Below, piece after piece: positions 32,686-47,015 of a stretch of DNA of 57,368 bases (its first letter is position 1; every line of letters begins with the position of its first letter). The DNA lies in IMG/VR virus record IMGVR_UViG_3300044993_000663, positions 1 to 57,368 of that record. One strand, written 5' to 3'. The stretch comes from a virus. Under the pieces are notes generated by a model. It made no database searches. It was not told the DNA's origin and saw only the letters and a list, made by a program, of their open reading frames with translations. A program made the position numbers and the translations under genes.

Positions 32686-34890
32686 ATGCAGCTCTTGGCC
32701 CCACAACGCGTCTTCCTTGCCGCCTCGGTGCTTGTGCTCAGCGCGGCGGCCCGGACCATCGCGCAGTTGAACGATGTCACCCTACCGGACACCATAAAGC
32801 TCTCTCGGCTCGTGGATGTCGCAGCAGAAGTGTCCGGACAGGCGTACAGCTACAACCCGGCCGACCTGGAAACCACGGTGACGGTTCGGGTCCCCGGCGG
32901 CTTCACGCGCGAGCAGATCCCGGCGCTGCTGAGTCACGTTCTGGCCTCGCGCGGGTTCACGACCGTCCGCACGCCGGGGAGTCCCCTGCTCTCGGTCGTC
33001 AAAATCGACCAGGCCGCCGGGATGGCGACTACGGCAGAGGGGGCCGCGGGTGGTGGGGCGGGGTTCGTCACGCAGGTCTTCGAGGCGCGGCATCTGCCCG
33101 CCAAGGCCTTGGCTGAAGCGGCGAGAAGCCTGCTCAGCAAGCCCGGTGGGACGGCCAACGTCGTCGGGGACAGCAACCTGGTCGCCGTCAGCGACCTGAT
33201 CGCCCGCGTCGAGGAGGTTCGCGCGCTCATCGCCCGCCTAGACAAGCCGGACGCGACGGTCGTGCGGGAGGTTGCCCTACGGCACCTCTCGGCGCAGCAG
33301 GCCGTGGCATCCATCGCCCAGGTCGCCGCCAAACGCGAGTCCGCGGGCGGACGGAAACTCGCCGGCGACGTTGTAGCCGGGTCGGACGGGCAGAGCCTTC
33401 TGCTCGTGTGCGCCCCCGAACAGGAGGAGGCATGGCGGGGGCTGATCGCCGCTGTGGATCGTCGCGAGCCTGTCGAGACACGGACGTACTCGCCGCGGTA
33501 CTTCCCGGCCCGGGATGTGGCCAAGCTCGCCGAATCTGCTGGGCAGGCGGGCGGGGCTCCCGCGGTTGATGATCGTTTCCGCGTGGTGGTTGATGATCTC
33601 ACGGGCAGCCTGCTCGTGACCGCCACGTCGCCTCAGCACGAGCGGGTCGCGGCGCTGATGGAGCGGCTCGACTCAACGCCCGCGGCCGCTCGCCGTCCAG
33701 TGCGTTCATTTGTGATCAAGAACCGTCCCGTGTCCGAGGTGAAGTCCATCATCGAGGAGCTCGCCCGAACGGGCGTGCTCCAGGCTGGAGCCGAGCAGCC
33801 CACAGGCCCCGCTCCAGCCGCCGCGGCAGGTGACCGCGGGGGCGGGGCGGCCGTGATCCAGCTCCCGCCGCCCCCGGTCGCAAGCGGCACTTCTCCGACA
33901 GCCGCTTCGGGAGCGTCATCCCCGACGCTCCGGAAGTCTCCCCCAGGGCCCGGCGCGGGCGAGCCGGCGCTCAGTCTCACAATTGACGAAGGAACCAACA
34001 CGCTCATCGCCGTGGGCGAACCCCGACTGCTCTCGCAGATCGAGGGGCTCCTGCGGACGCTCGACGTCCGGCAGCCGCAGGTCATGCTGGAAGTCTTGAT
34101 GGTCACGCTGACGGACAACCAGTCGCGCGACCTCGGGGTGGAACTGGAAAAGCTTCGGATCACCGACGACCTGTTCATCCGGCTGTCGTCCCTGTTTGGG
34201 CTGGGGACTCGGAACGCCGCCGGGGATCGGACCGCCGGCGACGCGTCGGGGTTCACGGGCGTGGTGCTCAGCCCCGGCGACTTCTCCGTTGTGATCCGCG
34301 CTTTGGAAACCCTCAACAAGGGCCGCTCCGTGAGCATGCCCAAGCTGCTGGTGGGGAACAACCAGCAGGCCAGCCTTGACTCGGTCGTGCAGCAGCCGTA
34401 CGCCAGCGTGAACGCGACCAACACGATCTCGACGACCTCATTTGGGGGCACGCAGGATGCGGGCACGGTCGTGACCATCAAGCCGCAGATCGCCGAGGGG
34501 GACCACCTGGTCCTGGAGTACTCGGTTTCGCTGAGCTCGTTCCTGGGCGCGGCGTCGAGCCCGACGCTCCCTCCGGCCAAGCAGCAGAACCGCGTGCAAA
34601 GCGTGGCGACGATCCCCGATGGCTCGACGGTCGTCGTCGGCGGCATCGACCTCGAGAGCGAATCCAAGACCACGTCCCAGGTGCCGTTCCTCGGGGACAT
34701 CCCGCTGCTGGGCGAGGTCTTCAAGAACCGCAACTCCACCAACAACCGCTCGCGCTTCTTCGTGTTCATCCGGGCCAACGTGCTCCGGGGGCGGGGGTTC
34801 GACGACCTGAAGTACCTCTCGATGCACGACATGGAGGCGGCACGCGTCCCCGACGGGTGGCCGGAGGTCGAGCCGAGGTTCATCCGGTGA
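32686..34890 (+). CDS. gspD: Type II secretion secretin GspD
   Basis: A 734-residue secretin with a signal peptide (about 1-27). Tandem N-domains span about 30-430 (SRLVDVAAEVSG, ARHLPAKALAEAARSLL, RVEEVRALIARLDKPDA, RNRPVSEVKSIIEELARTGV) with a Pro/Ser-rich linker at about 380-420. The secretin core follows, with RQPQVMLEVLMVTL and the conserved end TVVVGGIDLESESKTTSQVP then FLGDIPLLGEVFKNR. It would form the outer-membrane channel for folded proteins. The stop overlaps the gspE start (GTGA). No S-domain lipobox is seen. Confidence 0.9.
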   Translation: MQLLAPQRVFLAASVLVLSAAARTIAQLNDVTLPDTIKLSRLVDVAAEVSGQAYSYNPADLETTVTVRVPGGFTREQIPALLSHVLASRGFTTVRTPGSPLLSVVKIDQAAGMATTAEGAAGGGAGFVTQVFEARHLPAKALAEAARSLLSKPGGTANVVGDSNLVAVSDLIARVEEVRALIARLDKPDATVVREVALRHLSAQQAVASIAQVAAKRESAGGRKLAGDVVAGSDGQSLLLVCAPEQEEAWRGLIAAVDRREPVETRTYSPRYFPARDVAKLAESAGQAGGAPAVDDRFRVVVDDLTGSLLVTATSPQHERVAALMERLDSTPAAARRPVRSFVIKNRPVSEVKSIIEELARTGVLQAGAEQPTGPAPAAAAGDRGGGAAVIQLPPPPVASGTSPTAASGASSPTLRKSPPGPGAGEPALSLTIDEGTNTLIAVGEPRLLSQIEGLLRTLDVRQPQVMLEVLMVTLTDNQSRDLGVELEKLRITDDLFIRLSSLFGLGTRNAAGDRTAGDASGFTGVVLSPGDFSVVIRALETLNKGRSVSMPKLLVGNNQQASLDSVVQQPYASVNATNTISTTSFGGTQDAGTVVTIKPQIAEGDHLVLEYSVSLSSFLGAASSPTLPPAKQQNRVQSVATIPDGSTVVVGGIDLESESKTTSQVPFLGDIPLLGEVFKNRNSTNNRSRFFVFIRANVLRGRGFDDLKYLSMHDMEAARVPDGWPEVEPRFIR

Positions 34891-36524
34891 CGGCGCAGAT
34901 TGCCATCCCGGCAGAGACGGAAGCGGCTCTCCGCGAGCCCAAGGTACTTGTTGATCGCGAGGTCAACGCCGCAACCGCCGCCTGGACGACCGCCCGTGCC
35001 CCCAGCCCGGAGTTCCTGTCCCGCGTGAATCACGACTTTGCGCGGCGACACCTCGTCCTGAGCGAGGGGTGTGTGGAGGGTGTCGAGCGCCTGGTCGCCG
35101 CTGAAGGCGCCAAGCCGGGGGTGGTCTTCAACATTGGCGTGCTCCTCAAACGACCAGTCCATGTGCGCCAAGCCACGGCGGAGGCGATCGCCGCCGCGAT
35201 CGACCGCGCCTACGCCGGGGCGGCCGGTGCCGCAATCAGCGCAGCCGAGTCCGATGTGCCCACTGTGGTGGTCGAGGGATCGGGCAATGTTGAGACCGAC
35301 CTCGATACGGCCGTTCGCGAGGCCGAGCGGGACCTGCTGGCGACGGCAGGCAAAGCCCCCGCGGTGCGCCTGGTCGACCTCATTCTCTTCGAGGCCCTGC
35401 TCCGCAGCGCCAGCGACGTGCATGTGCAGCCCGTCCGCGACCGGACGCTGGTGCGGTACCGCCTGGACGGGGCGCTGCACACGGTGCGAGAGCTCCCCGC
35501 GTCGCTGGCCAGCAGCGTCGTGAGCCGGATCAAGGTCATGGCGCGGCTGGACGTGGCCGAACGCCGGGCGCCGCAGGACGGGCGGGCGACCGTCACCATC
35601 GGCGGTGCCGGCGGAGCCCAGATGGGCCGGCGCGTGGACCTGCGCATCAGCACGCTCCCGAGCACCTACGGAGAGCGCGTTGTGCTGCGACTGCTCGATC
35701 CGTCCCGCTCCCCGCACCTGCTCAACTTCGCCGCGCTGGGCATGCCCCCGGAGGTCGAGCGCCGGTTCCTGGCGCAGGTCAGCCGCACCAGCGGGATCGT
35801 GCTCTCGACCGGCCCAACCGGGAGCGGCAAGACCACGACGCTCTACGCGACGCTGGCCTGGCTGAGCATGACCAATGCCGGTAGCCAATCGCGTGGATGC
35901 GAGCTCAACATGATGACGGTGGAGGACCCGGTCGAGTACGACCTCGCCACCGGGGGCAAGGCGGGGCTCTCCATCAGCCAGACCCAGGTGGACCCCAAGA
36001 AGGGCGTGACGTTCGTCTCCGGCCTCAAGCACATCCTGCGGCAGGACCCCGACGTGATCATGGTCGGCGAGGTGCGGGACGAGGAGACCGCCCGCATCGC
36101 CGTCCAGGCGTCCCTCACCGGGCACCTAGTCCTCAGCACGCTGCACACCAACGACGCGGCCAGCGCGGTGGCGCGGCTGCTGGACCTGGGCGTCGAGCCG
36201 TTCCTGGTGAGTTCCTCGCTCTCGGCGGTGCTCGCGCAACGCCTGCTGCGGACTAGGCATGGAGCGTGCGAGGGAGCGGGCTGCCCGGAGTGCCTGGGCA
36301 CCGGGTTCAAGGGCCGTACGGGCGTGTTCGAGCTGCTCGTGCTCGACGGGCCTATCCGCGAGATGGTCGGTCGCCGCGCCTCGGCCCTCGATATCAAGGC
36401 AGCGGCCCAGCGCGCGGGCATGGTCACGCTCCGCGAGGCCGGCGAGCGCCTCGCCGACGCTGGGCTCACCACGCGCGAGGAAGTCAGCCGTGTCATCGAC
36501 GCACTCGACGAGGTGGAGACATGA
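34887..36524 (+). CDS. gspE: Type II secretion ATPase GspE
   Basis: A 545-residue GspE/PilB-family ATPase. The N-terminal domain runs to about 140, followed by the NTPase with Walker A STGPTGSGKTTTLY (about 309), the Asp box MTVEDPVEYDL, Walker B RQDPDVIMVGEVRDEETARI, and His box STLHTNDAASAVARLLDLG. The C-terminal Cys pattern CEGAGCPECLGTG is a shortened version of the family's zinc-binding tetracysteine. It powers assembly of the pseudopilus at the inner membrane. GTG at 34887 overlaps the gspD stop; an ATG at 34857 is the alternative. Confidence 0.92.
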   Translation: MTAQIAIPAETEAALREPKVLVDREVNAATAAWTTARAPSPEFLSRVNHDFARRHLVLSEGCVEGVERLVAAEGAKPGVVFNIGVLLKRPVHVRQATAEAIAAAIDRAYAGAAGAAISAAESDVPTVVVEGSGNVETDLDTAVREAERDLLATAGKAPAVRLVDLILFEALLRSASDVHVQPVRDRTLVRYRLDGALHTVRELPASLASSVVSRIKVMARLDVAERRAPQDGRATVTIGGAGGAQMGRRVDLRISTLPSTYGERVVLRLLDPSRSPHLLNFAALGMPPEVERRFLAQVSRTSGIVLSTGPTGSGKTTTLYATLAWLSMTNAGSQSRGCELNMMTVEDPVEYDLATGGKAGLSISQTQVDPKKGVTFVSGLKHILRQDPDVIMVGEVRDEETARIAVQASLTGHLVLSTLHTNDAASAVARLLDLGVEPFLVSSSLSAVLAQRLLRTRHGACEGAGCPECLGTGFKGRTGVFELLVLDGPIREMVGRRASALDIKAAAQRAGMVTLREAGERLADAGLTTREEVSRVIDALDEVET

Positions 36525-37060
36525 CCGCCCCCGCGACTCCCACGAGCATCCCCTCAGCTCCTGCTCTCACGGGCGGCAGGTCCGCCGCTCTCGGGGCGAA
36601 GCAGGGCCGCCAATCCATCGGGCGCGTCCTCGCGCTCGTGTGCGTTGCCGTCTGCGGCGTGTGGGCGTTTATGCCTCTGGGCCCAGCGCAGGTTGACGTT
36701 CCCCAGGTCGGCGTCTCCGCCGCGGGGGCTCGGCCGCCAGCGCCGGCCGCTCTCGACCTGGCCGCGTTCAACGCGCCCCTGTGGGTCGCGCCCGCTCCTC
36801 CGCCCCCGGCGGTCGTGGAGGCACCACCGCTTCCGCCCCCTCCGCTGAGGTGGCAACTGCTGGCGATCCTGCGCGAGGACACCGGCTACAGGGCGCTCGT
36901 GTACGACCCGGACGCCGATAGGTTGATTGTGCTCAAGGAGGGCGATGAGTCCGGCCCGCAGCGGGTCGAGCGCGTGACCGCCACGACGCTGAACGTCCGC
37001 GGCGGCGCTGGTGTTCGTACCCTCGCTCTCCGCGAGGCAGCAGCGGGAGGCCGGCCATGA
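36521..37060 (+). CDS. GspC-like inner-membrane secretion protein
   Basis: A 179-residue protein with a single membrane segment (about 35-52, VLALVCVAVCGVWAFMPLG), a long Pro/Ala-rich periplasmic linker (about 60-110) and a small beta domain (LRWQLLAILREDTGYRALVY, RLIVLKEGDESG, VERVTATTLNVRGG). This layout matches the HR domain of GspC or the PilP family, which links the inner-membrane platform to the secretin. ATGA overlap with gspE and with the next gene. Assignment rests on architecture more than sequence. Confidence 0.6.
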   Translation: MTAPATPTSIPSAPALTGGRSAALGAKQGRQSIGRVLALVCVAVCGVWAFMPLGPAQVDVPQVGVSAAGARPPAPAALDLAAFNAPLWVAPAPPPPAVVEAPPLPPPPLRWQLLAILREDTGYRALVYDPDADRLIVLKEGDESGPQRVERVTATTLNVRGGAGVRTLALREAAAGGRP

Positions 37061-37884
37061 TGACGGACCTGACATGGCCGGCGGACCGGTTCTACTGGAC
37101 GGTGCTCGACGCGCCGGGGCTGCGCCATAATGGGGAACTGCCGGTTGGCCTGTTACTGCTGCTTCAGGAGGACCTCCCGGTTGAACTGGACACGCTCCAC
37201 GCCGTGGGGGCGACCCTCGCTGACGGCCGCGTGGCGGTCTGCGCCGCCGAACGCTCCGACCTTGACGCCATCCCGGCCGACGCCTTGTCGCTGACACCGG
37301 AATCCCTTCCCCGGTTCCTCGATGGCGAGTGCTTGACGCCCGATCGCTTCAATCTTCTGGTGGGAGCGTTCGAGCCGCGCCCGATCCGTATGGTCCGCAT
37401 CAAGCGCCACGCCTTCGCGGCGGGCACGCTGCTGCTCTGCGGCCTGCTCCTGGCCATCGGGCTGCATCGCCGCGCGTCGCATTGGCGCGAACTCGCCGGC
37501 TCAGCCGACGCGGCGGCGGGACAGGTTGCAGCCGCTGTCGTCCCGACGGGCAGGCCTGTGGACCTGGCCGCCCAGGCGGCGCGCCTCCGCGGCACGCGGG
37601 AGGCCCTGGCCAAGGCCGCTTCCCCGCCGGATGCCTCGCTCTCGCTCGCGAAGGTGCTGCGAGCCTGGCCATCGAGCACCCCGAGCAAGCCGCAATCGAT
37701 CTCGGTCAGCCCCTCTGCCATTGCGATCTCGGTATCGCTTGAGGGGGATCCTGCCGCGTTCCTGAAGGCATTTACAGCGCCTATGGGCTGGGAGATGGAC
37801 GAGCCGCGCCTCAACACCGCGGACAAGCTCACACGCCTGTCGCTTCAGCTCCGTCCGGTCGGGGGGGCGGGAGGAATGCCATGA
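37057..37884 (+). CDS. GspL/PilN-like inner-membrane protein
   Basis: A 275-residue protein with an N-terminal cytoplasmic domain (about 1-115, shorter than the actin-like domain of GspL), one membrane segment (AAGTLLLCGLLLAIGL, about 125-141) and a periplasmic part with a coiled helix (AAQAARLRGTREALAKA) followed by a ferredoxin-like fold (SISVSPSAIAISVSLEGDPA). This order corresponds to GspL or PilN proteins, which couple the ATPase to the pseudopilus. It overlaps both neighbours by four bases. Confidence 0.6.
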   Translation: MMTDLTWPADRFYWTVLDAPGLRHNGELPVGLLLLLQEDLPVELDTLHAVGATLADGRVAVCAAERSDLDAIPADALSLTPESLPRFLDGECLTPDRFNLLVGAFEPRPIRMVRIKRHAFAAGTLLLCGLLLAIGLHRRASHWRELAGSADAAAGQVAAAVVPTGRPVDLAAQAARLRGTREALAKAASPPDASLSLAKVLRAWPSSTPSKPQSISVSPSAIAISVSLEGDPAAFLKAFTAPMGWEMDEPRLNTADKLTRLSLQLRPVGGAGGMP

Positions 37885-38420
37885 GTCGCCCGGTCCTGTA
37901 TATATGGATTGGCGCCGTGGTGATCGCCGGAGCCGCCGTGGCGGTCACTGCCCCCACCGCCGCGCGGGCTCGGGACGACGCCGCGGCCGCTCAGGCGTCC
38001 CTGCGGGACGCCGCCCGCAACGCCGAGCTCATTTCCACGCTGCGCACCCAGGCGCCCGATGCCATAACGGGCGACTCGCACGGCGGGCTGACCCCGCGCG
38101 TCACCGCGGCGCTCGAGCGAGCCGGGCTGCCGGCTGGAGCGCTGGCGAGCCTCTCGCCCGAGGCCGAGTCGCAGGTAGTGAGCCAAGCGGGAGTTCGCGT
38201 CTCGCGCCGCCGCGCGACGCTGACGCTCGCGGGCGTGACGCTGCCCGCGGTCGGCCGCTTCCTGGACACATGGCGGGCCGCCGAGCCGGCGTGGACTCCG
38301 ACGAGCATCGACGTTGCTCCCGCCGGCGGGCAGGCTGCCGAGGCTGGGGGGGACCTGCCACTGCGGGCGGTGATCGTGATCGAGTCGGTCGTGGTGCGTC
38401 AGACAGGAGAGCATCGTTGA
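37881..38420 (+). CDS. GspM/PilO-like inner-membrane protein
   Basis: A 179-residue protein: a short cytoplasmic start, a membrane segment (VLYIWIGAVVIAGAAVAVTA, about 5-24), a helix (ARARDDAAAAQASLRDAARN), and a ferredoxin-like periplasmic domain with a conserved VSRRRATLTLAGVTLPAVGR strand-helix. This matches GspM or PilO, the partner of GspL/PilN. It follows the GspL-like gene with a four-base overlap and ends TTGA over the start of the TPR lipoprotein. Confidence 0.6.
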   Translation: MSRPVLYIWIGAVVIAGAAVAVTAPTAARARDDAAAAQASLRDAARNAELISTLRTQAPDAITGDSHGGLTPRVTAALERAGLPAGALASLSPEAESQVVSQAGVRVSRRRATLTLAGVTLPAVGRFLDTWRAAEPAWTPTSIDVAPAGGQAAEAGGDLPLRAVIVIESVVVRQTGEHR

Positions 38421-39007
38421 ACCCACTCCTGCGCCGGATCCTTATGGCGTTAGTGCCTCTGCTCGTGCTGGCGCTGAGCGTCGGGTGTGCCTCGAACAAG
38501 CGGTCGGGCGCGTATTCGCCTATGACAGAGGAAGGACGCGATTCAGCTGCCTCTCAGCGCCTGGCGCAGGAGGCGGTCAAGATCGTGGCGACCGACCCGG
38601 CCCGGGCCGAGGCACTGCTCCGCGAGGCCCTGAACGCCGACCTCTACAACGGGCCGGCGCACAACAACCTCGGGGCGCTGTACCTCTCGCAGGGCAAGCT
38701 CTACGAGGCGGCCGGAGAGTTCGAGTGGGCGCGCAAGCTGATGCCCGGCCACCCCGACCCACGCTTGAACCTCGCGCTGGTGCTCGAGCGGGCCGGGCGC
38801 ACGGACGAGGCGCTTGCCACCTATGCCACGGCGCTGGAGGTGTACCCCGAGCACATCCCCACGATGCAGGCGCTCACGCGGCTGCAGCTCCGCGCTGGCC
38901 GAACTGACGACCGCACCGCGAAGATGCTCGACGAGGTGGCCCTGCGGGGCGAGACGCCCGCGTGGCGCGACTGGGCAAAGTTCCAGAGGGCACGGATCAT
39001 TCCGTAG
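38417..39007 (+). CDS. TPR lipoprotein (PilF/TadD-like)
   Basis: A 196-residue lipoprotein. Signal peptide II is LLRRILMALVPLLVLALSVG with the lipobox Cys directly after it, and two or three tetratricopeptide repeats span about 55-160 (DLYNGPAHNNLGALYLSQGK, PDPRLNLALVLERAGRTDEA). Such lipoproteins assist secretin assembly or sit at the outer membrane in type II or type IV systems. TTG at 38417 overlaps the previous stop and keeps the positive n-region (LLRR); ATG at 38444 is the alternative. It is the last gene of the cluster, four bases before the end of the converging Hint-domain gene. Confidence 0.75.
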   Translation: MNPLLRRILMALVPLLVLALSVGCASNKRSGAYSPMTEEGRDSAASQRLAQEAVKIVATDPARAEALLREALNADLYNGPAHNNLGALYLSQGKLYEAAGEFEWARKLMPGHPDPRLNLALVLERAGRTDEALATYATALEVYPEHIPTMQALTRLQLRAGRTDDRTAKMLDEVALRGETPAWRDWAKFQRARIIP

Positions 39008-39011
39008 GGGA

Positions 39012-40289
39012 TCAGATCGAGTACGTGCCCGTCCCCCCGCCGCTGGACTGGCTGCTGGAGCCGCTGCCGCTGCCGGAGCCGGAGGAGGAACTCGACGTCA
39101 TCGACGACCCGCTGGACTTGCTGGCCGAGCCGGAGGACGACGAGCCGCTGCTGCTGGAAGAGCCGCTGCCGGAACTGGAGCCCGAGCCGCTGGAGCTTGA
39201 GCCCGAGCTGGTCGAGTGGGCGGTCGCGGGCATGTCGTTGTGGACCCAGACGCCCTCGGCGGAGAACGTGTTCGTGCCGGGGATGTGGATGGCCACGGTG
39301 CGGGTCGGCGCATCGATGCGCTCGACGGTCTCGACGAGTTCCTCAGCAAGTCGCTCGCCGATCAGGTAGTCGCCCTTCTTGAGGAACTCGGCGGACGAGA
39401 AGCCCCATTCGTCGCCGCGGCGCATGAGGAACGGGTGCTCGGGCGTCGCCTTGATGCGCCGATTGATCACCACGAACCCTGTGTGCTCGCCGAGTTTCAC
39501 GCTGGCGACGCGGCCAACGGTCGGGATCGTGCCGCGCAGGCCGTGGTGCGAAAGCCACTGATATTGCGCGCGGTAGGGCACATCGACCTCGAGTCCGGGG
39601 ATCTTAATGGTGGCGACGCGGTCGCCGGGCGTGAGGTTCTCGATCGTGGTGACGCGGCCGTCGGCCAGACGGACGAGCGTGCCAAAGAGCAGGCAGTTCG
39701 AACCCCCGCCACCACCACCTCCGCCTCCGCCGCCGCCCCCACCCCCGCCACCACCACCACCTCCTCCGCCGCCCCCTCCGCCTCCGCCGCCACCCGATCC
39801 GCCGCCGCCCGAACCACCGCCGCCGGAGCCGCCGGAGCCGCCCCCGCCCGAGCCGCCTCCGCCTGACCCGCCACCGCCGGAGGACCCACCGCCCCCGCCG
39901 GAGGAGCCGCCCCCACCGGAGGATGCTCCGGAAGAACCGCCGCTCATCCCGCTCGTGCCACCGCCGCCGGAGGATCCCCCCGAACTCCCGCTCCCGCCGC
40001 TGGACGCGCCGCTGCTGCCCGCGCCGGTACTCCCCGATGCGCCGCTCGACGCGCCGCTGCTGGCCCCGCTGCTCACGCCGCTCGAAGCACCGGAGGAGCC
40101 GCTCGACGAACCCGAGCCGCTGCTGGATGACCCGCTCGATGATCCTGACGAACTGCTACCGCTCGACGAGGACGAGCCCGACGACGAACTCTCCGAACTG
40201 CCGGACGAGCCGGAGCCCGAGCCGCCGGGGCCGCCGGTGGAGGCCCACACGGGGATGTAGAGGAAGTACCGGCGTGGCTCGTCGCTCAT
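39012..40289 (-). CDS. Gly/Ser-rich protein with intein-like Hint (BIL) domain
   Basis: A 425-residue protein. After an 18-residue start (SDEPRRYFLYIPVW) comes a Ser/Gly then almost pure Gly tract to residue 198, including a long poly-Gly run. A Hint domain follows from Cys199 to Asn351: CLLFGTLVRLADGRV, TIENLTPGDRV, block-B-like IKATPEHPFL, and the end GTNTFSAEGVWVHN. Cys at the start and terminal His-Asn are the self-cleavage residues of inteins. Because Asn is followed by Asp rather than Cys, Ser or Thr, it resembles B-type bacterial intein-like domains, which cleave rather than splice. A second Gly/Ser tail follows. It lies last in the phage structural operon. GGAG supports ATG 40289. Confidence 0.8.
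   Translation of the reverse strand: MSDEPRRYFLYIPVWASTGGPGGSGSGSSGSSESSSSGSSSSSGSSSSGSSSGSSSSGSGSSSGSSGASSGVSSGASSGASSGASGSTGAGSSGASSGGSGSSGGSSGGGGTSGMSGGSSGASSGGGGSSGGGGGSSGGGGSGGGGSGGGGSGGSGGGGSGGGGSGGGGGGGGGGGGGGGGGGGGGGGGGGGGGGGSNCLLFGTLVRLADGRVTTIENLTPGDRVATIKIPGLEVDVPYRAQYQWLSHHGLRGTIPTVGRVASVKLGEHTGFVVINRRIKATPEHPFLMRRGDEWGFSSAEFLKKGDYLIGERLAEELVETVERIDAPTRTVAIHIPGTNTFSAEGVWVHNDMPATAHSTSSGSSSSGSGSSSGSGSSSSSGSSSSGSASKSSGSSMTSSSSSGSGSGSGSSSQSSGGGTGTYSI
39696..40235. repeat. Low-complexity GGN/AGC-type tract encoding poly-Gly/Ser
   Basis: A stretch of imperfect trinucleotide repeats (plus strand rich in CCG, CCA, CCT and GCT) that encodes the Gly/Ser region of the minus-strand Hint protein. 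On the plus strand it gives an artificial poly-Pro/Glu frame. The tract is likely to vary in length by slippage and may be mis-assembled. Confidence 0.7.
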
Positions 40290-40339: not shown

Positions 40340-41038
40340 ATGGGCCTTGACGGCGTCGAGTTGGTGATGGAGGTTGAAGACCGGTTCCGGGTCAATCTGC
40401 CCGATGCTGAGTGTGGCAGCGTTCGCACCGTCGCCGATCTCGCGGCGCTGGTCATTTCGCGGCTTCCGCGCTCGACTGGTGTTTGCCCAACAGCACGGTC
40501 GTTCTTCAGCCTTCGAAAGGCGATCGTTCGAGACTGCGGTATCGAACGCCGCTCGCTGAAGCCCGGCACTCCCTTGGACGCAGCGTTTCCTCGTCCGCAT
40601 CGCAGAAGTCGATGGAAGCGAGTGGCCAAGCTGGAGCCGCTCATGCCGCGGCTTGCTCCCACCGAGACCGCACGGAGGAGTTTCGCGGCGATCGGGTGGT
40701 TGCTGCTCCTGCTTTGGGTTGCCTCTCTTGTTCTCGTGGTCCTGGAGTTGGGAATGACGGGCGGCATGGTGCTCGGAGGCATCCTTGCGCTCGGTGCAGT
40801 CGCGTTCGTCCGAGCGAAGGATTTCATTGCCACCGAGTTTCCTGCAGAATGCACCACTCTCGGAGACCTGGCGCGAGCCATCTCGCCCCAAACGCTCCCG
40901 CTGGGCGCAGGCGATCGATTGCTGGCAGAGCAGCGAGTCCTTGAACAAGTTCGGACTATCACCGCGGAACAACTCGGGCTTCGTCCTGAGCAGGTCAAAC
41001 CCGAATCCCGCTTCGTTGATGATCTTGGGATGGGCTGA
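40340..41038 (+). CDS. Membrane protein with split acyl-carrier-like segments
   Basis: A 232-residue protein. It begins MGLDGVELVMEVEDRFRVNL, like helices II-IV of an acyl carrier protein without the serine-bearing DSL loop. It has a middle domain (FSLRKAIVRDCGIERRSLKP), two adjacent membrane segments (about 113-150), and ends TITAEQLGLRPEQVKPESRF then VDDLGMG, which resembles helix I up to the edge of the phosphopantetheine site. The modified Ser is absent, so normal acyl carriage is unlikely. I recall similar proteins in planctomycetes with this same layout. It points against the phage operon and is a cargo-type gene. Confidence 0.6.
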   Translation: MGLDGVELVMEVEDRFRVNLPDAECGSVRTVADLAALVISRLPRSTGVCPTARSFFSLRKAIVRDCGIERRSLKPGTPLDAAFPRPHRRSRWKRVAKLEPLMPRLAPTETARRSFAAIGWLLLLLWVASLVLVVLELGMTGGMVLGGILALGAVAFVRAKDFIATEFPAECTTLGDLARAISPQTLPLGAGDRLLAEQRVLEQVRTITAEQLGLRPEQVKPESRFVDDLGMG

Positions 41039-41070: not shown

Positions 41071-41991
41071 TCATCGTGTGCCTCCCTCCGGATCGACTGT
41101 TCTCCGACCTGACGGCCACTCGTACCACCCGGCGGTGCTGATGGGTTTCGAGCACTCGGCGGCCGCATCGCTCACGGCCTGCTCGAAGGGCACGAACTCG
41201 AACGCCTTCAGGGCGCACGCCTCGGGGTCGGGCGCACAGTTCAGCACGCGGAAGCGGTGCTGCTCGAAGTGCGGCCGCAGGGCCTCGAAGCGCTTCTGAA
41301 GACTCTCGTACAGGATGTTGTTGTGGCGGATCGCGTCCTTGCTGCGGTGCTCGTCGAAGGCGTAGCGCCGGTCGCGGGCCATCTTGAAGTCGCACCCGAG
41401 GAGGTACACCGTGCGGAAGCCCAGGTAGTGCAGCAGGTGCAGCGCGGCGAGCATCACGCTCCGCTTGCCCTTGATGCCGAGCGAGTCGGTGTGCTCGCCG
41501 TCCTGGCCCCAGTTGATGGCGTCGCTCTTGAGGAATCGGCTGTGATCGAAGTGGTCGCTGCGGCGGTAGAAGAGCACGCCCGGCATCTGCCGCACCTTGA
41601 ACGCGCTGGCGCGGAACGAGCCGTCGGGGTTCTGGACCCGCAGACGCTTGTCGAAGTGCGAGACAGGCACGATCTTCAGGATGCCGGGGTCCTTCCAGCC
41701 GGTGTCGATGAAGCGCCCTGGGTCGTCCACGCACGTCCACAGCGTGGGGCGATGCACGGCCCAGGCGTTGTTGACGGCCATCGTCACGATGCCGCGCCGG
41801 TTGAGTTGGGCCAGGTCGAGCGCCGACAGCGACGGCCCCGAGAGGATCAGGAACGCCGACCGTCCGCGGTAGAAGTCGCACAGGGACACCGAGTCGAAGT
41901 CGGCGGTGTATAGGCGCACGCCACTCCGCGCGGGCCTGCGCTGCTTGAGTCCCGCCTGCAACGCCGCGATGTCGCCACCATTCTCACGCAT
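41071..41991 (-). CDS. DUF115/MptE-like protein in the phage tail region
   Basis: A 306-residue protein with AFLILSGPSLSALDLAQLNR (a Rossmann-type nucleotide-sugar-binding start), TMAVNNAWAVHRPTLWTCVD, and VYLLGCDFKM. These are features of the DUF115 family (motility-accessory/MptE-like), whose members act on sugars or pterin. It lies directly after a methyltransferase gene (eight-base overlap if ATG 41991 is used; an ATG at 42021 is possible). A role in modifying a virion or host glycan is inferred. No membrane segment is seen. Confidence 0.6.
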   Translation of the reverse strand: MRENGGDIAALQAGLKQRRPARSGVRLYTADFDSVSLCDFYRGRSAFLILSGPSLSALDLAQLNRRGIVTMAVNNAWAVHRPTLWTCVDDPGRFIDTGWKDPGILKIVPVSHFDKRLRVQNPDGSFRASAFKVRQMPGVLFYRRSDHFDHSRFLKSDAINWGQDGEHTDSLGIKGKRSVMLAALHLLHYLGFRTVYLLGCDFKMARDRRYAFDEHRSKDAIRHNNILYESLQKRFEALRPHFEQHRFRVLNCAPDPEACALKAFEFVPFEQAVSDAAAECSKPISTAGWYEWPSGRRTVDPEGGTR

Positions 41992-42565
41992 CCTTGAACA
42001 CCCCCGCGATGTACCCCCCACGAGGCGCGCCCAGCCCCCGGCGCACCGTGCCGACGCGGCCGATCCGGTCGAGCCACCACTTCAGCGGCCGCACCGTCGG
42101 GTGCAGGCCCTCGCCATCCACCTTGGTCTTGCTCTCCCGCGTGCAGGTCGACAGCACGAAACCCCCGCCCGGCACGGCGATCCGCCGCATCTCTTCGAGC
42201 ACCTCGTCCACCTCTTCGGGGAGCAGGTGTTCGAGGGCATCGAACGAGGTCACCACGTCGGCGATGCCCGCGGAGACGGGCACTCGGTGCATGGGCGCCA
42301 CGATGTCCGCCTCGGGGAAGGCGAAGTCGATGCCCAGGCCGTCGATCCCCAACCGCCGCAGGTGCTGTATAAAGAGGTTTCGTCCGCAGCCGAAGTCCAC
42401 GACGAACCGGGGCTTGAATCCCTGGACGAGCCGGTACGCGAAGCGCCCGTGATTGGTCGAGCCGTAGGTGCCCCCGGCGTGCTCGGCAAGCGCGAGGTAC
42501 TTCCGCCGCTCGTGCTCGCGCCGGGCTTCGAGGTCCACGGGGATGGAGACGTTCGCGTCAGACAT
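41984..42565 (-). CDS. Class I SAM-dependent methyltransferase
   Basis: A 193-residue methyltransferase. Motif I is FVVDFGCGRNLF (about 54-65), the acidic loop is GLGIDFAFPEADIV, and motif II/III are DVVTSFDALEHLLPEEVDEV and VPGGGFVLSTCTRE. This is a methyltransferase_11/23-type enzyme, often acting on small molecules or glycans. ATG at 42565 overlaps the previous phage gene by eight bases and the next gene by eight. The substrate is unknown; pairing with the DUF115-like gene suggests a sugar-linked substrate. Confidence 0.8.
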   Translation of the reverse strand: MSDANVSIPVDLEARREHERRKYLALAEHAGGTYGSTNHGRFAYRLVQGFKPRFVVDFGCGRNLFIQHLRRLGIDGLGIDFAFPEADIVAPMHRVPVSAGIADVVTSFDALEHLLPEEVDEVLEEMRRIAVPGGGFVLSTCTRESKTKVDGEGLHPTVRPLKWWLDRIGRVGTVRRGLGAPRGGYIAGVFKDA

Positions 42566-43592
42566 AGAGCCACACCGGGACGTCGAACTCGACCAGTTCC
42601 ATTCCGTTGAGGGCCTGGAACGCCCAGACCGTCCCGCCTCGCGTGTCGCGCTCGGCCACCATCTCGACCGCAACGCCCTTGAGGATGGGGCGCAGCATCG
42701 GCACCGCCGCCTTGCGGGGGCAGTAGCCCGCGGGGTCCAGCGGCTCGAGTTGCCCGGGGACGAACAGCGACCGCAGGCCGCCGAAGCCGTCGGTGCCGTC
42801 GGGCTCCTCCTCGGAAACGTCGCTGTGATGGCTCTCGAACCTGTTGACCGCCCAGTGCGCTGGGTTCTCCTCGCCGCCCGCGCCCTTGGACGACAGACCT
42901 TCCTCCAGCGCGATGTACCGCCCGAAGGTATCGCTGCCGGGGTCGCCGTCGATGGCGGCCTCGATCCACGGGTAGCGCCAGCGGAAGCGCTCGCCCTCGA
43001 TCTCGCGGGCCTCGCCGAGAATGGCGACGATGCGACCCCCACGCGGGCGGCCCACCTCGACCAGCGCCCACTTCTCGCCGACACCTTCCTCCTTCCAGAG
43101 GATGGCGGCGCTGCCGGAGCCGGCGGACGTGAGCACGGTCTCATCGGGGGCGACCTCGGCGAATGCGTGCTCCTCGTCCTCGATGAGCACCCGCGCGGGC
43201 GTGACGCCGTGGACCACGCACAGGCCGACCTCGCCCTGCGGGATCGGCTCGCGCGCGATGGCGAACGAGCCCGGGCGCGTGGCGTCGGTGGGCGTGATGC
43301 CTTTGAAGGCCAGGCGGTTCTGGAAGGACTTTTCCGGGCCGTCGTCGTCGGGGAGGAACAGAGGGCCGTCGATGGCCAGGGCGTGGTAGCGCTCCAGATT
43401 CGCGCCGCTGTCGTTGCGCACGGCGACGACGCCCCCGCCGATGAAGGAGCGCCCGCCGTCCCAGAGTTCCCCGGCGCGGCGGTCCTGCTGGCGGCGGCGC
43501 GCGTCGAGCGCCGCATCGACGAAGGCGTTGTACGCCCGCGCGGGGATGCGGAGCGGATCGCCGGGCCGGACTTTGCGGAGTTCGTCACCCAT
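42558..43592 (-). CDS. Phage tail-region structural protein of unknown class
   Basis: A 344-residue protein starting MGDELRKVRPGDPLRIPARA with GGAG eight bases upstream. Segments such as FIGGGVVAVRNDSGANLERY and AREPIPQGEVGLCVVHGVTP are beta-rich, as in phage minor tail or baseplate-associated proteins. The C-terminal half contains WAVNRFESHHSDVSEEEPDG and a beta-strand end (VEFDVPVWLYV). I know of similar proteins in planctomycete prophages but no function. An in-frame ATG at 43607 is also possible. It follows the TIR gene divergently. Confidence 0.6.
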   Translation of the reverse strand: MGDELRKVRPGDPLRIPARAYNAFVDAALDARRRQQDRRAGELWDGGRSFIGGGVVAVRNDSGANLERYHALAIDGPLFLPDDDGPEKSFQNRLAFKGITPTDATRPGSFAIAREPIPQGEVGLCVVHGVTPARVLIEDEEHAFAEVAPDETVLTSAGSGSAAILWKEEGVGEKWALVEVGRPRGGRIVAILGEAREIEGERFRWRYPWIEAAIDGDPGSDTFGRYIALEEGLSSKGAGGEENPAHWAVNRFESHHSDVSEEEPDGTDGFGGLRSLFVPGQLEPLDPAGYCPRKAAVPMLRPILKGVAVEMVAERDTRGGTVWAFQALNGMELVEFDVPVWLYV

Positions 43593-43641
43593 AAATGATC
43601 TCCACAACCTCGCTCGACCACAACGTCGTACACTTCACGCC

Positions 43642-44178
43642 ATGCAGCCCGCCCGAGCATTCGACGTATTCATCTCGTACAGCACCGATGATCTCGAGTA
43701 CGCCCGCTTGGTTCGACGTGCAGTCGAGAACCTCGGATTCCGCGCCTTTCTGGCCGAGACGAGCCTTGCTGCTGGGGAACGATTGCAGGTAATCCGGAAC
43801 CACTTGCAGCGCTCGAAACTGCTGGTCTTGCTTTGGAGCGAAAGTGCGAGCAAGTCCGAGTGGGTGCGTGATGAAGTTGGTGCTGCGTGGGGTGCCAACG
43901 TGCCTGTCATTCCAGTACTTCTGACCTCGGGCTTGGAGTTGCCGCCATCGCTTCGCACCTCCGGCGTGAAGTACCAGAATGCTGTCAGCAAGGACAGCGC
44001 AAGCCTCCTCGACGTGCAGTCCGCTGTTATTGCCTGGTGGCAGGACGTGCTTGCGAGGCATGCGGCACACCGCGCTGCACTCGAAGAGCAGCGCCGACAA
44101 CAGCAAGCGGAGTCGACCAAGGCGGTGCTCGGCATCGCCGCAGCTGGTGCGGTTCTCTACGCCTTGTCGAAGTCCTGA
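43642..44178 (+). CDS. TIR-domain protein with C-terminal membrane segment (phage cargo)
   Basis: A 178-residue protein. The TIR domain fills residues 7-130: FDVFISYSTDDLEYARLVRR, FRAFLAETSL, LLVLLWSESASKSEWVRDEV. Glu78 in WVRDE is the position of the catalytic Glu of TIR NADases. After a helix (RAALEEQRRQQQAESTK) there is a membrane segment (AVLGIAAAGAVLYAL, about 160-175). TIR effectors deplete NAD or make signalling nucleotides in anti-phage defence. It faces against the surrounding tail genes and starts 49 bp from the divergent gene start, so it has its own promoter, as expected of superinfection-exclusion cargo. No partner sensor is adjacent. Confidence 0.8.
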   Translation: MQPARAFDVFISYSTDDLEYARLVRRAVENLGFRAFLAETSLAAGERLQVIRNHLQRSKLLVLLWSESASKSEWVRDEVGAAWGANVPVIPVLLTSGLELPPSLRTSGVKYQNAVSKDSASLLDVQSAVIAWWQDVLARHAAHRAALEEQRRQQQAESTKAVLGIAAAGAVLYALSKS

Positions 44179-44183
44179 CATCA

Positions 44184-45008
44184 TTATCCAAGCCCCAATG
44201 CCGCGAAACTCCCGCTCTCGTACACGCGCTCGACGTAGGCCGCGACGGGGCGCTTCACGAGCGCCTTGGCGGCGGTGTCCTCCTGGTCGCTGTACCGCAC
44301 CCACAGGTACTCCCACCCCTTCTTTGTGATGCCCCCGATCGGACCGATCGAAAGGCCCGAGACGTTGGGGCTGGCGGCGAAGCGGTAGGTGATCTCCCAA
44401 TCGGCCTCGTCGCCGCTGCCGCGCTTCGCGCCGCTCGCGCCCAGGAAGAGCACCTCGCCGGGGGCGAAGCCACGGAAGCCGTCGCCGTTGACCTTGCCGG
44501 TCAGGTTGAATAGCACGCCCTTGTACGCGCCGGTGATCTGGGCGTCGGGCTTGTAGTGCGTCTCGGCGAAGTGGTAGACGGGGACGGTGATGTCGATCCC
44601 CTCGACGCCGTCGGCGCTGACGCCGATCGCGCCCTGGAAGTCCGGCGCGACCATCCCCGGCGCGGGGACGCGCTGCACGGTGGTCAGCGACTGCGTGATG
44701 TGCTGCGTGCCCCCGCCGGTGTCGAACTGGAAGGTGGACTCGCCGGTGGGCGGCCCGCCACCGCCGCCGCTCGTGGGGGCGTAGCGGGCCAGGCCGTCCC
44801 ACAGGCCCGGGCCGAGGGGCTCGATCTGCACGCTCTGCCGCGGCAGGGTGGCGTAGGTGGCGGGTGCCTCGGCCTCGAGCGCATCCCGCGCGGCGATGTC
44901 GTTGTCCGTGCCCAGGACGATGTACGCGAGCTCCGCCGAGGAGTTGCTCCCGGTGACGCTCTTGACGAGCCTGCGTGACTCGAACTTCTCTCGCACCTCG
45001 ATGGGCAT
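44184..45008 (-). CDS. Phage tail protein downstream of tape measure
   Basis: A 274-residue protein starting MPIEVREKFESRRLVKSVTG with GGAG before it. The N-terminal third (SAELAYIVLGTDNDIAARDA) resembles minor tail or distal-tail-associated proteins. The second half contains FAETHYKPDAQITGAYKGVL and NGDGFRGFAPGEVLFLGASG, and ends with a beta-rich VRYSDQEDTAAKALVKRPVA. It lies 12 bp after the tape measure gene, the usual place of distal tail components. No enzymatic motif. Confidence 0.6.
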   Translation of the reverse strand: MPIEVREKFESRRLVKSVTGSNSSAELAYIVLGTDNDIAARDALEAEAPATYATLPRQSVQIEPLGPGLWDGLARYAPTSGGGGGPPTGESTFQFDTGGGTQHITQSLTTVQRVPAPGMVAPDFQGAIGVSADGVEGIDITVPVYHFAETHYKPDAQITGAYKGVLFNLTGKVNGDGFRGFAPGEVLFLGASGAKRGSGDEADWEITYRFAASPNVSGLSIGPIGGITKKGWEYLWVRYSDQEDTAAKALVKRPVAAYVERVYESGSFAALGLG

Positions 45009-45020
45009 CCGTCACTCCGA

Positions 45021-47015
45021 TCAGCCGAACGTCAATCCGCCCGTCCCCGCCGCGTCGGCCAGGCGCTTGGTGTGCCTCGCCGTCTGCTCCGTCGCGCGTG
45101 CGGTGCGCTCGGCGGCGTCGCTGCCCGCGGCGAGTCCCTGCGCGGCCTTGGCGTTGAACGTGCCGCGCACGCTGATCCCCTTGGCGAGCAGGTCACCCAG
45201 GCCCGCGATCCGCTCGTCGAACTCGACCATCAGGTCGCGTGGCGAACGCGACGGCCCGCGTTCGACGTCCGCCGCCTCGCGCTTGCGCCGTGCATCTTCG
45301 ATCGCGGCGGCCAGGCGCTCCTTCGCGGCGTCGAGGGCCGCGCGCGACTCGGCGAGCCCAGCCTCCGTGTCCTTGCGGAGGGCGTCCTGCGCGTTCTCGA
45401 AGTCCTGCCCGATCGCGGCGAGGGTCGCCTCGTGGATGGCGGCCGCCTGCTCGCGCTCGGCCGCCCGGCGGCGCTCCCGCGCGGCCACGTCGCGCTGGGC
45501 GGCGTCCTCCAGTTCGACGAGCCGCGACTCGAGTTGCTGGTCCACCGCTTTCTTCGCGGCGTCCACGTCGAGCCCGGAACCGAACAGCCTCTGGATCTCC
45601 AGCATGCGCTTGGCGACCCACGACGACGCAGACTCCCAGATCTGCTGGAAGCCGGTGGTGAAGTTCGTCCAGGTCTTGCTGAGGAACGCCGTCGTCTCGA
45701 TCCACGCGACCCCGATCGCGTGGAAGCCGATCTCGGCAGCAGCCAGCGCCCCGTACCACATGGACTGCGCCGTGCCGACGAAGAACTGCTTGGCCTCAAG
45801 CCAGACCTTGTTGAGCGCCGCGACGCCCTGCTGCCAGGCGACCTTCAGACTCAGCCACAGGATCTCGGCGGCGAGCGCGATGTCGCCCGCCGCGAGCGCA
45901 TCGGAGATGCCGCCGATGACCTTGGTCGCCCAGTCGCGCAGGCGCGTGAACTGCTCCCCGAGCCACTCAAGGGCAACACCGCCCGCGCCGCTGGTGACCA
46001 GGAGCGCCGCGCCAAGGCCGACGACGGCGGCGATGACCAGGCCGATGGGGCTGAGGAGCGCACCCAAGGCCGCGCCGACCAGCCCGAACGCCGCCCCGAT
46101 GCCGGAGACGACGCTGGCCAGCACGCCCATCGCCGCGCCGATGCCGGTGATCGCCACGCCCAGGCCGATGAGGGCGGCTCCGACGACGACCACGCCCGCC
46201 GCGACCTTGAGCGCCCACACCACCATGTCCTTGTTCCGCTTGATCCAGTCGGTGGCGGCGACGATCACGCGGGTGATCCGCAGCGACAGGTCCTTGATCG
46301 TGGGCGCGAGCGCCCCGCCGATGGCGAAGACGCCCTGCTTCACGACCCGCCAGAGGATGTTCAGCGTGTCGTTGAGTTCCGCGGCGTCCCTGGCCGTCTG
46401 CGTGCTCACCGTCAGGCCGAGACTGCGGGCCTGGGCTTGGAGTTCCTCGATCCCCGTCGCGCCCGACGAGAGCAGCGGGAGCAGTTTCGTGCCGGCGCGT
46501 CCGAAGATCTCCATCGCCAGCGCCGTGCGCAGGGCCGGGTCGGTGACCTGCGCCAGACGGTCGGCCAGGCGCTTGAACTGCTGATCGGGCGAGAGGCCCG
46601 CGAGGTCCTCAACCGAGAGTCCGAGCAGCGAGAGAGCCTGCTGCGCCGAGGCCGAGCCCTTGGCCGCGTCCACGAGCGAACGCTGCATGAACTTCAGGCC
46701 GTTCTCCAGCGTCTCCAGGTCCGCCCCCGACTGCTCCGCGGCGAAGCCCAGTTCGCTCAGGGCCTCGGCGCTGACGCCCGTTCGCAGACTCATCTTGTCG
46801 AGCGTGTCGCCCATGCTGGAGAACACCTTCACGCTGCCCAGCAGCGCCGTCACCGCCGCCGCGCCGACCCCCGCCAGGCGCGTGCCGGCGCTGCGCAGGC
46901 CTTGGCCGAAGGCCTCCAGGCGCTTCTGGGCGCGGCGGAGCCCGGCGCTGAGCTTGTCGCTGACGCCCAGTTCCACGAACGCCCGTCCGGCCCGGATGCC
47001 CCGCGTGTCGGCCAC
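45021..47015 (-). CDS. Phage tail tape measure protein
   Basis: A 664-residue tape measure protein. A helical N-terminal part (SAGLRRAQKRLEAFGQGLRS, GDTLDKMSLRTGVSAEALSE) leads to the conserved TMP region (FAAEQSGADLETLENGLKFM). Two Gly/Ala/Val-rich hydrophobic segments (about 270-340) follow, then a long helical C-terminus with RDVAARERRRAAEREQAAA-type coiled coil (about 520-620). It sets tail length; at 664 residues a tail of roughly 100 nm is expected by the usual rule. GTG at 47015 has GGGAGG upstream. It follows the tail chaperone block as in siphophages. Confidence 0.9.
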   Translation of the reverse strand: MADTRGIRAGRAFVELGVSDKLSAGLRRAQKRLEAFGQGLRSAGTRLAGVGAAAVTALLGSVKVFSSMGDTLDKMSLRTGVSAEALSELGFAAEQSGADLETLENGLKFMQRSLVDAAKGSASAQQALSLLGLSVEDLAGLSPDQQFKRLADRLAQVTDPALRTALAMEIFGRAGTKLLPLLSSGATGIEELQAQARSLGLTVSTQTARDAAELNDTLNILWRVVKQGVFAIGGALAPTIKDLSLRITRVIVAATDWIKRNKDMVVWALKVAAGVVVVGAALIGLGVAITGIGAAMGVLASVVSGIGAAFGLVGAALGALLSPIGLVIAAVVGLGAALLVTSGAGGVALEWLGEQFTRLRDWATKVIGGISDALAAGDIALAAEILWLSLKVAWQQGVAALNKVWLEAKQFFVGTAQSMWYGALAAAEIGFHAIGVAWIETTAFLSKTWTNFTTGFQQIWESASSWVAKRMLEIQRLFGSGLDVDAAKKAVDQQLESRLVELEDAAQRDVAARERRRAAEREQAAAIHEATLAAIGQDFENAQDALRKDTEAGLAESRAALDAAKERLAAAIEDARRKREAADVERGPSRSPRDLMVEFDERIAGLGDLLAKGISVRGTFNAKAAQGLAAGSDAAERTARATEQTARHTKRLADAAGTGGLTFG

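Follow-up and report, generated by a model that had tools for sequence, protein, structure and literature searches.

What does a Hint domain do when it sits between two Gly/Ser-rich arms in the last gene of a phage tail operon? To our knowledge, the native role of bacterial intein-like (BIL) domains is mostly unsettled, and a search of a literature library turned up nothing about Hint domains in prophages of Planctomycetes. The gene considered here lies in a 57,368-nucleotide stretch of viral DNA (the window), where it encodes a protein with the following features.

39012..40289, minus strand: whole coding sequence, 425 aa, comprising anchor, Gly/Ser N-arm, Hint domain and Gly/Ser C-arm (ORF call, dN/dS)
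40239..40289, minus strand: conserved N-terminal segment MSDEPRRYFLYIPVWAS (MSDGPTRYYLYIPVWATG in relatives), a possible docking peptide
39699..40238, minus strand: N-terminal Gly/Ser arm, residues 18-197, zero lysine
39702..39794, minus strand: poly-Gly run, 31 residues (166-196), mixed GGN codons
39696..39698, minus strand: Asn198, the -1 residue, Asn in 121/121 relatives
39237..39695, minus strand: Hint domain, residues 199-351, 153 aa (Pfam, profile, AlphaFold and fold matches)
39693..39695, minus strand: Cys199, the block A nucleophile, invariant
39435..39446, minus strand: T282-P-E-H285, the TxxH of block B
39237..39242, minus strand: His350-Asn351 of block G, invariant, with Asp352 next
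39015..39236, minus strand: C-terminal arm, residues 352-425
39099..39119, minus strand: lone-lysine motif K391-S-S-G-S-S-M397, in 120/121 relatives and missing from five Hint-less alleles

The 425-aa protein starts with MSDEPRRYFLYIPVWAS, and no signal peptide is visible at its N-terminus. The part preceding the Hint domain (198 aa) is 85% Gly+Ser and ends in 31 Gly, an exact count that is uncertain and may be wrong, followed by Ser-Asn. The C-arm (74 aa) begins Asp-Met-Pro and is 77% Gly+Ser. Cys199 is the sole Cys in the protein, and Lys391 is the sole lysine outside the Hint domain. A preliminary description of this DNA had reported a Hint domain with its Cys199 and terminal His-Asn intact at the end of a phage operon, flanked by Gly/Ser tracts with a long poly-Gly run, and an Asp in place of a +1 nucleophile after the terminal Asn. 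Each of these observations held, and the architecture recurs in 110 + 11 further proteins described below. It had also named a frame broken within the repeat as a possible refutation. The frame through the poly-Gly run is open in separate assemblies, with Gly runs of 16-33, so that a frame-breaking assembly error is unlikely; many independent assemblies keep the frame open. A spurious GC-rich ORF was ruled out by dN/dS.

The Hint domain was modelled with AlphaFold from a 37-sequence alignment (mean pLDDT 89.5, pTM 0.86). At E<=0.001 the model had 58 matches in the PDB; BILs and inteins ranked first, and hedgehog 1at0 was among the others. The top Foldseek matches were Tetrahymena BIL2 (6y75/6tmm) and the C. 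thermocellum BIL (2lwy), with E values of 2e-9 to 3e-8, and a profile search of the PDB also gave 2lwy as the best match (E 9.8e-8). With its Hint fold, and with the block A Cys and the block B T-x-E-H each found in 121/121 relatives, the domain belongs to the Hint superfamily. The Pfam models Intein_splicing, PT-HINT and Hint_2 all score under their cut-offs: the isolated domain reached 26.4 bits against PF07591 (Pretoxin-HINT), whose gathering score is 27.7, and a sub-threshold 27.2 bits against PF14890 (intein splicing domain). The C-terminal toxin domain characteristic of Pretoxin-HINT proteins was not found, the C-arm being Gly/Ser. Type A BILs end in His-Asn, and type B BILs are without block G (PMC4031507). 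A terminal His-Asn is present in 121/121 relatives, a Cys, Ser or Thr at +1 is missing in 120/121, and the GVWVHN end is present where a type B domain would have no similarity to intein block G. By the published criterion the domain is therefore an A-type BIL on its sequence, not a B-type as the preliminary description had labelled it, and the closest solved relatives point the same way.

Relatives were collected by scans of IMG/VR and GTDB, which gave 19, 37 and 80 loci and from them 110 distinct proteins, and by a neighbouring-gene query, an independent route that contributed 11 more, for a total of 121 distinct relatives. Cys1, T-x-E-H, His-Asn and Asn(-1) are each found in all 121. The +1 residue is Asp in 116, Gln in 2, Ala in 2 and Thr in 1, and 115/121 have Ala or Ser at F:4, the equivalent position to the block F Asp. 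The catalytic positions are all kept over divergence to about 45% identity. Against the nine closest prophages listed, dN/dS of the Hint domain is 0.009-0.086, the differences being mostly synonymous; a truncated copy, L042, with a dN/dS of 0.14, was set aside from this range. The self-processing anticipated in the preliminary description is to be expected. It is very improbable that the Hint domain is a catalytically dead, beta-rich spacer: some Hint-less alleles do exist, but the catalytic positions are all kept to about 45% identity and purifying selection is strong. Still harder to credit is invasion of the gene by a selfish mini-intein. The intein-like fold and residues and the existence of alleles without the Hint domain would agree with it, but there is no homing endonuclease within the 153-aa domain, the insertion lies in a Gly/Ser tract rather than an enzyme active site, the flanking Asn and Lys motif are kept, and no precise empty site was found. 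Nor does the locus resemble a mobile intein that splices, given the Asp at +1 and the different segment found in alleles without the Hint domain.

In GTDB, nearly all loci come from metagenome-assembled genomes (MAGs) of Phycisphaerae or other Planctomycetota. The few under other taxon names are MAG contigs that may be misbinned; the sequence downstream of L027, labelled Rhizobiaceae, is the same as in L028, from a Phycisphaeraceae MAG. The Gly/Ser-Hint gene occurs in up to six copies per genome. Five Phycisphaerae genomes (G001-G005) hold four to six related copies each, several within about 30 kb, which suggests either unusual polylysogeny or prophage remnants. One divergent member (L194:5783-6949; about 45% identity) has Thr at +1 and may, because of this residue, be able to splice.

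The arms are not featureless. C-arms are drifting Gly/Ser sequences of 47-145 residues, within which K-x-S-G-S-S (one change allowed) is found in 120/121 relatives, about 22-55 residues past His-Asn and usually with Phe or Met at +6/+7. In 20 representatives with less than 80% Hint identity, the motif with F/M/L at +6/+7 was present in 20/20, whereas shuffled controls had it in 3.2 on average and in 10 at most. It was also present in 11/11 members obtained later by the neighbouring-gene query. The sole member lacking it is L042, the truncated copy, whose frame enters other sequence. N-arms contain no lysine in 99/99 two-gene members. The motif codons differ synonymously among members and the motif is kept where other genes follow, so an explanation as attachment-site DNA is unlikely.

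Five complete alleles have no Hint domain (L200:5885-6865, L204, L207, L210 and L211). They share the same N-terminal 100 residues and roughly the same C-terminal 40, and none has the Lys motif; a segment SDSFSNTLTLGSDGTI...TEVTI replaces the Hint domain and the motif together. These alleles differ over the entire intervening segment and are not precise empty sites. They look like a single clade, so the joint loss of Hint domain and motif was probably one evolutionary event. BIL2-type chemistry would require just such a lysine, single, conserved and present only together with the Hint domain. Because BIL2, to which the fold is most similar, links its N-extein to a lysine through an isopeptide bond (PMC8616854), we propose Lys391 as a candidate acceptor or docking site of the Hint domain.

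How might such a domain process its own arms? A-type BILs mainly cleave, with weak splicing possible without a +1 nucleophile (PMC4031507; cleavage also PMC7664689), and BIL2 resolves its thioester with a lysine, forming an isopeptide bond to the C-extein or to another protein (PMC8616854). As both the +1 nucleophile and the block F Asp are missing here, ordinary coupled splicing is unlikely; formation of a thioester at Cys199 and cyclisation of Asn351 could still take place. Our best explanation is that the gene product is a Ser/Gly-rich appendage, most likely on the tail of a Phycisphaerae phage, and that it would be matured by its embedded A-type BIL Hint domain. Cys199 would attack the Asn198 carbonyl to give a thioester, and Asn351 would cyclise and free the C-arm. 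With no +1 nucleophile available, the thioester would be resolved chiefly by the epsilon-amine of Lys391 in K-x-S-G-S-S-(F/M), either in cis, joining the arms, or in trans, cross-linking subunits, with thioester hydrolysis as a side reaction. Exposed Ser residues would probably be glycosylated by the adjacent transferases. Taken as a whole, with conjugation to Lys391 included, we hold this explanation tentatively, at a little short of even confidence. A somewhat more doubtful proposal is its functional consequence, namely that the phage encodes an ATP-independent conjugation machine that could couple a Ser/Gly arm, probably glycosylated, through its Asn198 end to Lys391 of the motif, in cis or between neighbouring subunits, yielding covalently cross-linked, flexible virion fibres. 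A point against the best explanation is that, in one study of a different intein, N-terminal cleavage was slow when Asn stood at -1 (PMC11842431); the idea that Asn(-1) accelerates N-cleavage was dropped, the reaction being slow in the sole intein tested.

Two other outcomes of the same chemistry have to be weighed. In plain autocleavage, the outcome favoured by the preliminary description, thioester hydrolysis and Asn351 cyclisation would free both arms with no ligation; the Lys motif would then be a docking or assembly tag. The missing +1 nucleophile (120/121) and block F Asp agree with such an outcome, as does the finding that BILs yield mainly cleavage products (PMC7664689, PMC4031507), but it leaves unexplained why a single Lys is kept in 120/121 relatives and is missing where the Hint domain is missing; we therefore consider it rather unlikely. 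In A-type BIL splicing, the N-terminus of Asp352 would attack the Asn198 thioester to give a continuous head-to-tail Gly/Ser protein. Low-level splicing by A-type BILs without a +1 nucleophile (PMC4031507), the relative L194 with its Thr at +1, and the five natural alleles that form a continuous arm without a Hint domain all speak for this. However, Asp(+1) in 116/121 and the lost block F Asp are unlike efficient splicing, and the Hint-less alleles are not precise empty sites, making this outcome improbable. The preliminary statement that splicing should not occur was nonetheless too strong, since A-type BILs splice weakly (PMC4031507) and BIL2 forms a lysine isopeptide (PMC8616854). Its guess of cross-linking gains unexpected support from the conserved single-Lys motif that accompanies the Hint domain, a motif absent from that description, the lysine being a candidate acceptor.

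The genes around the Hint gene bear on where its product is likely to act. Those immediately upstream in the window are listed here.

41071..42021, minus strand: MptE/sialyltransferase-like protein, probable glycosyltransferase, upstream neighbour (a call that rests on weak matches: weak Pfam, with MptE-like under the Pfam cut-off; PHROG sialyltransferase, E 2e-8)
41984..42565, minus strand: SAM methyltransferase (Methyltransf_23)
42558..43592, minus strand: tail-operon protein KVRxGDPLxIPA..., with an N-domain that is fused to Ser/Gly-Hint in a second lineage
44184..45008, minus strand: conserved tail-operon protein
45021..47015, minus strand: tail tape-measure protein

The Gly/Ser-Hint gene closes the tail operon of a Phycisphaerae prophage, with portal, head, neck and tape-measure genes upstream. 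In nearly all loci the order is portal, head, neck, tape measure, the 44184 and 42558 genes, methyltransferase, MptE/sialyltransferase-like gene and Gly/Ser-Hint gene. Neither the 42558-43592 nor the 44184-45008 protein matched anything in the annotated phage collection. Structure prediction gave only a weak model of the 42558-43592 protein (pTM 0.45), and the phage structural or fibre-like proteins that it matched by fold have low TM-scores. A second lineage has the N-domain of the 42558 protein fused to a Ser/Gly arm and Hint domain. In that lineage the upstream methyltransferase and glycosyltransferase were not found, and a GT32-type glycosyltransferase or a GT25-sulfotransferase protein is encoded downstream. 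The virion association that the preliminary description took as given is inferred from tail synteny and the fusion to a tail-operon protein, which make it likely that the Gly/Ser-Hint protein sits in the virion. As a separate question from the chemistry, the protein could instead be made by the lysogen and displayed or secreted as a product of lysogenic conversion; the gene is at the prophage end, and its glycosyltransferase neighbours could modify the host surface. We regard this as unlikely in view of the strand and order shared with the tail genes in most loci, the fusion in the second lineage and the lack of a visible signal peptide.

A glycosyltransferase-type gene adjoins the Hint gene in 76/77 loci with enough flank, a count for which the queries came from the same neighbourhoods that were afterwards counted. 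This association suggests that the neighbouring transferases may place glycans on the Ser-rich arms. In L124:10777-12180 and L080:11169-12815, a glycosyltransferase family 25 domain and a sulfotransferase occur in one protein beside the Hint gene, and phage-made sulfated glycans are possible there.

As the preliminary description had placed it, the gene ends its operon, with tail genes upstream. In the window's subgroup, similarity to sister prophages ends at the Gly/Ser-Hint stop codon and the flanks differ; across L024-L061 it ends at that codon, whether TGA, TAG or TAA, and the flanks are unrelated. The prophage thus seems to end with the last codons of the gene. In one sister prophage, the opposite end holds a large serine recombinase (L144:11833-13398). 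Three prophages showed no recognisable direct-repeat att core, and a PF02914 search for a Mu-like transposable phage gave 0 matches, its control also giving 0. On the plus strand of the window, 32686-39007 holds GspD- and GspE-like genes of a host-like type II secretion system, followed by a host TPR lipoprotein gene that is next to the Hint gene, with stop codons 5 bases apart; the L044 prophage is at nearly the same host locus. Also on the plus strand, a TIR-domain gene (43414-44178; TIR_2 E 8e-16, ThsB_TIR) lies inside the tail operon on the opposite strand to it. It was not seen at that place in the sister prophages examined and is possibly a defence or moron gene. A further plus-strand gene, with acyl-carrier-protein-like segments (40340-41038; PP-binding), is inserted between the glycosyltransferase and Hint genes; L030, L065 and L077 have relatives of it in the corresponding position. 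A small gene after the Hint gene in L068 (10602-11126) has a match to DNA polymerase beta palm/thumb, which is unexpected among tail genes, and one in L080 (10660-11196) resembles it by eye only.

The family offers more than 100 natural variants, fixed residues flanking the domain, a candidate acceptor lysine and Hint-less alleles, which together make the purpose of a BIL directly testable. If the lysine is the acceptor, this would be a covalent fibre-building chemistry of phage and possibly a ligation tool with a short tag.

Among known systems, the C. thermocellum BIL 2lwy (TM 0.71-0.85) shares the Cys1-type block A, the TxxH, the His-Asn end and an unneeded +1 nucleophile. The present family differs from 2lwy by its fixed Asn(-1) and Asp(+1), by Gly/Ser arms of which the C-arm carries a Lys motif, and by its place in the tail operon of a phage. 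BIL2 of the Tetrahymena BUBL1 polyubiquitin locus (6y75/6tmm), the top fold match (E 1.9e-9), is the precedent for an isopeptide from N-extein to Lys (PMC8616854). In contrast to the phage domain, it is eukaryotic, flanked by ubiquitin-like domains and zinc-regulated, and at 19% identity its sequence link to the window's Hint domain is no closer than the Hint superfamily. Sub-threshold likeness to Pretoxin-HINT (PF07591) and the intein domain (PF14890) comes without the toxin domain or the homing endonuclease.

In phage NCTB and the Erwinia/Dickeya jumbo phages, Hint domains (23-30% identity) are C-terminal on collagen-like tail proteins. As here, they lie behind a Gly-rich or collagen-like fibre part and in a tail region, but only 4-11 residues follow His-Asn, the block F Asp is kept in at least some, and they have neither Asn(-1) nor a Ser/Gly C-arm with the Lys motif. 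In phage NCTB (L021:2224-9483) and two Erwinia phages (L022 and L023), where the Hint domain ends a collagen-like or long tail protein, each of these 4-11 residue tails has a Lys. A viral structure library held further Hint domains on fibronectin-type and collagen-repeat proteins, and no described function was found for phage fibre-like Hint proteins in public data. For the neighbouring transferases, the mycobacteriophages Che8 and Rita encode glycosyltransferases and carry glycans on virion proteins (PMC11256854). Those glycans are on the capsid, whereas here the predicted target, judging from the genes, is a Gly/Ser tail appendage. The family is set apart by its fixed Asn(-1) and Asp(+1), double Gly/Ser arms, Lys motif and transferase neighbours.
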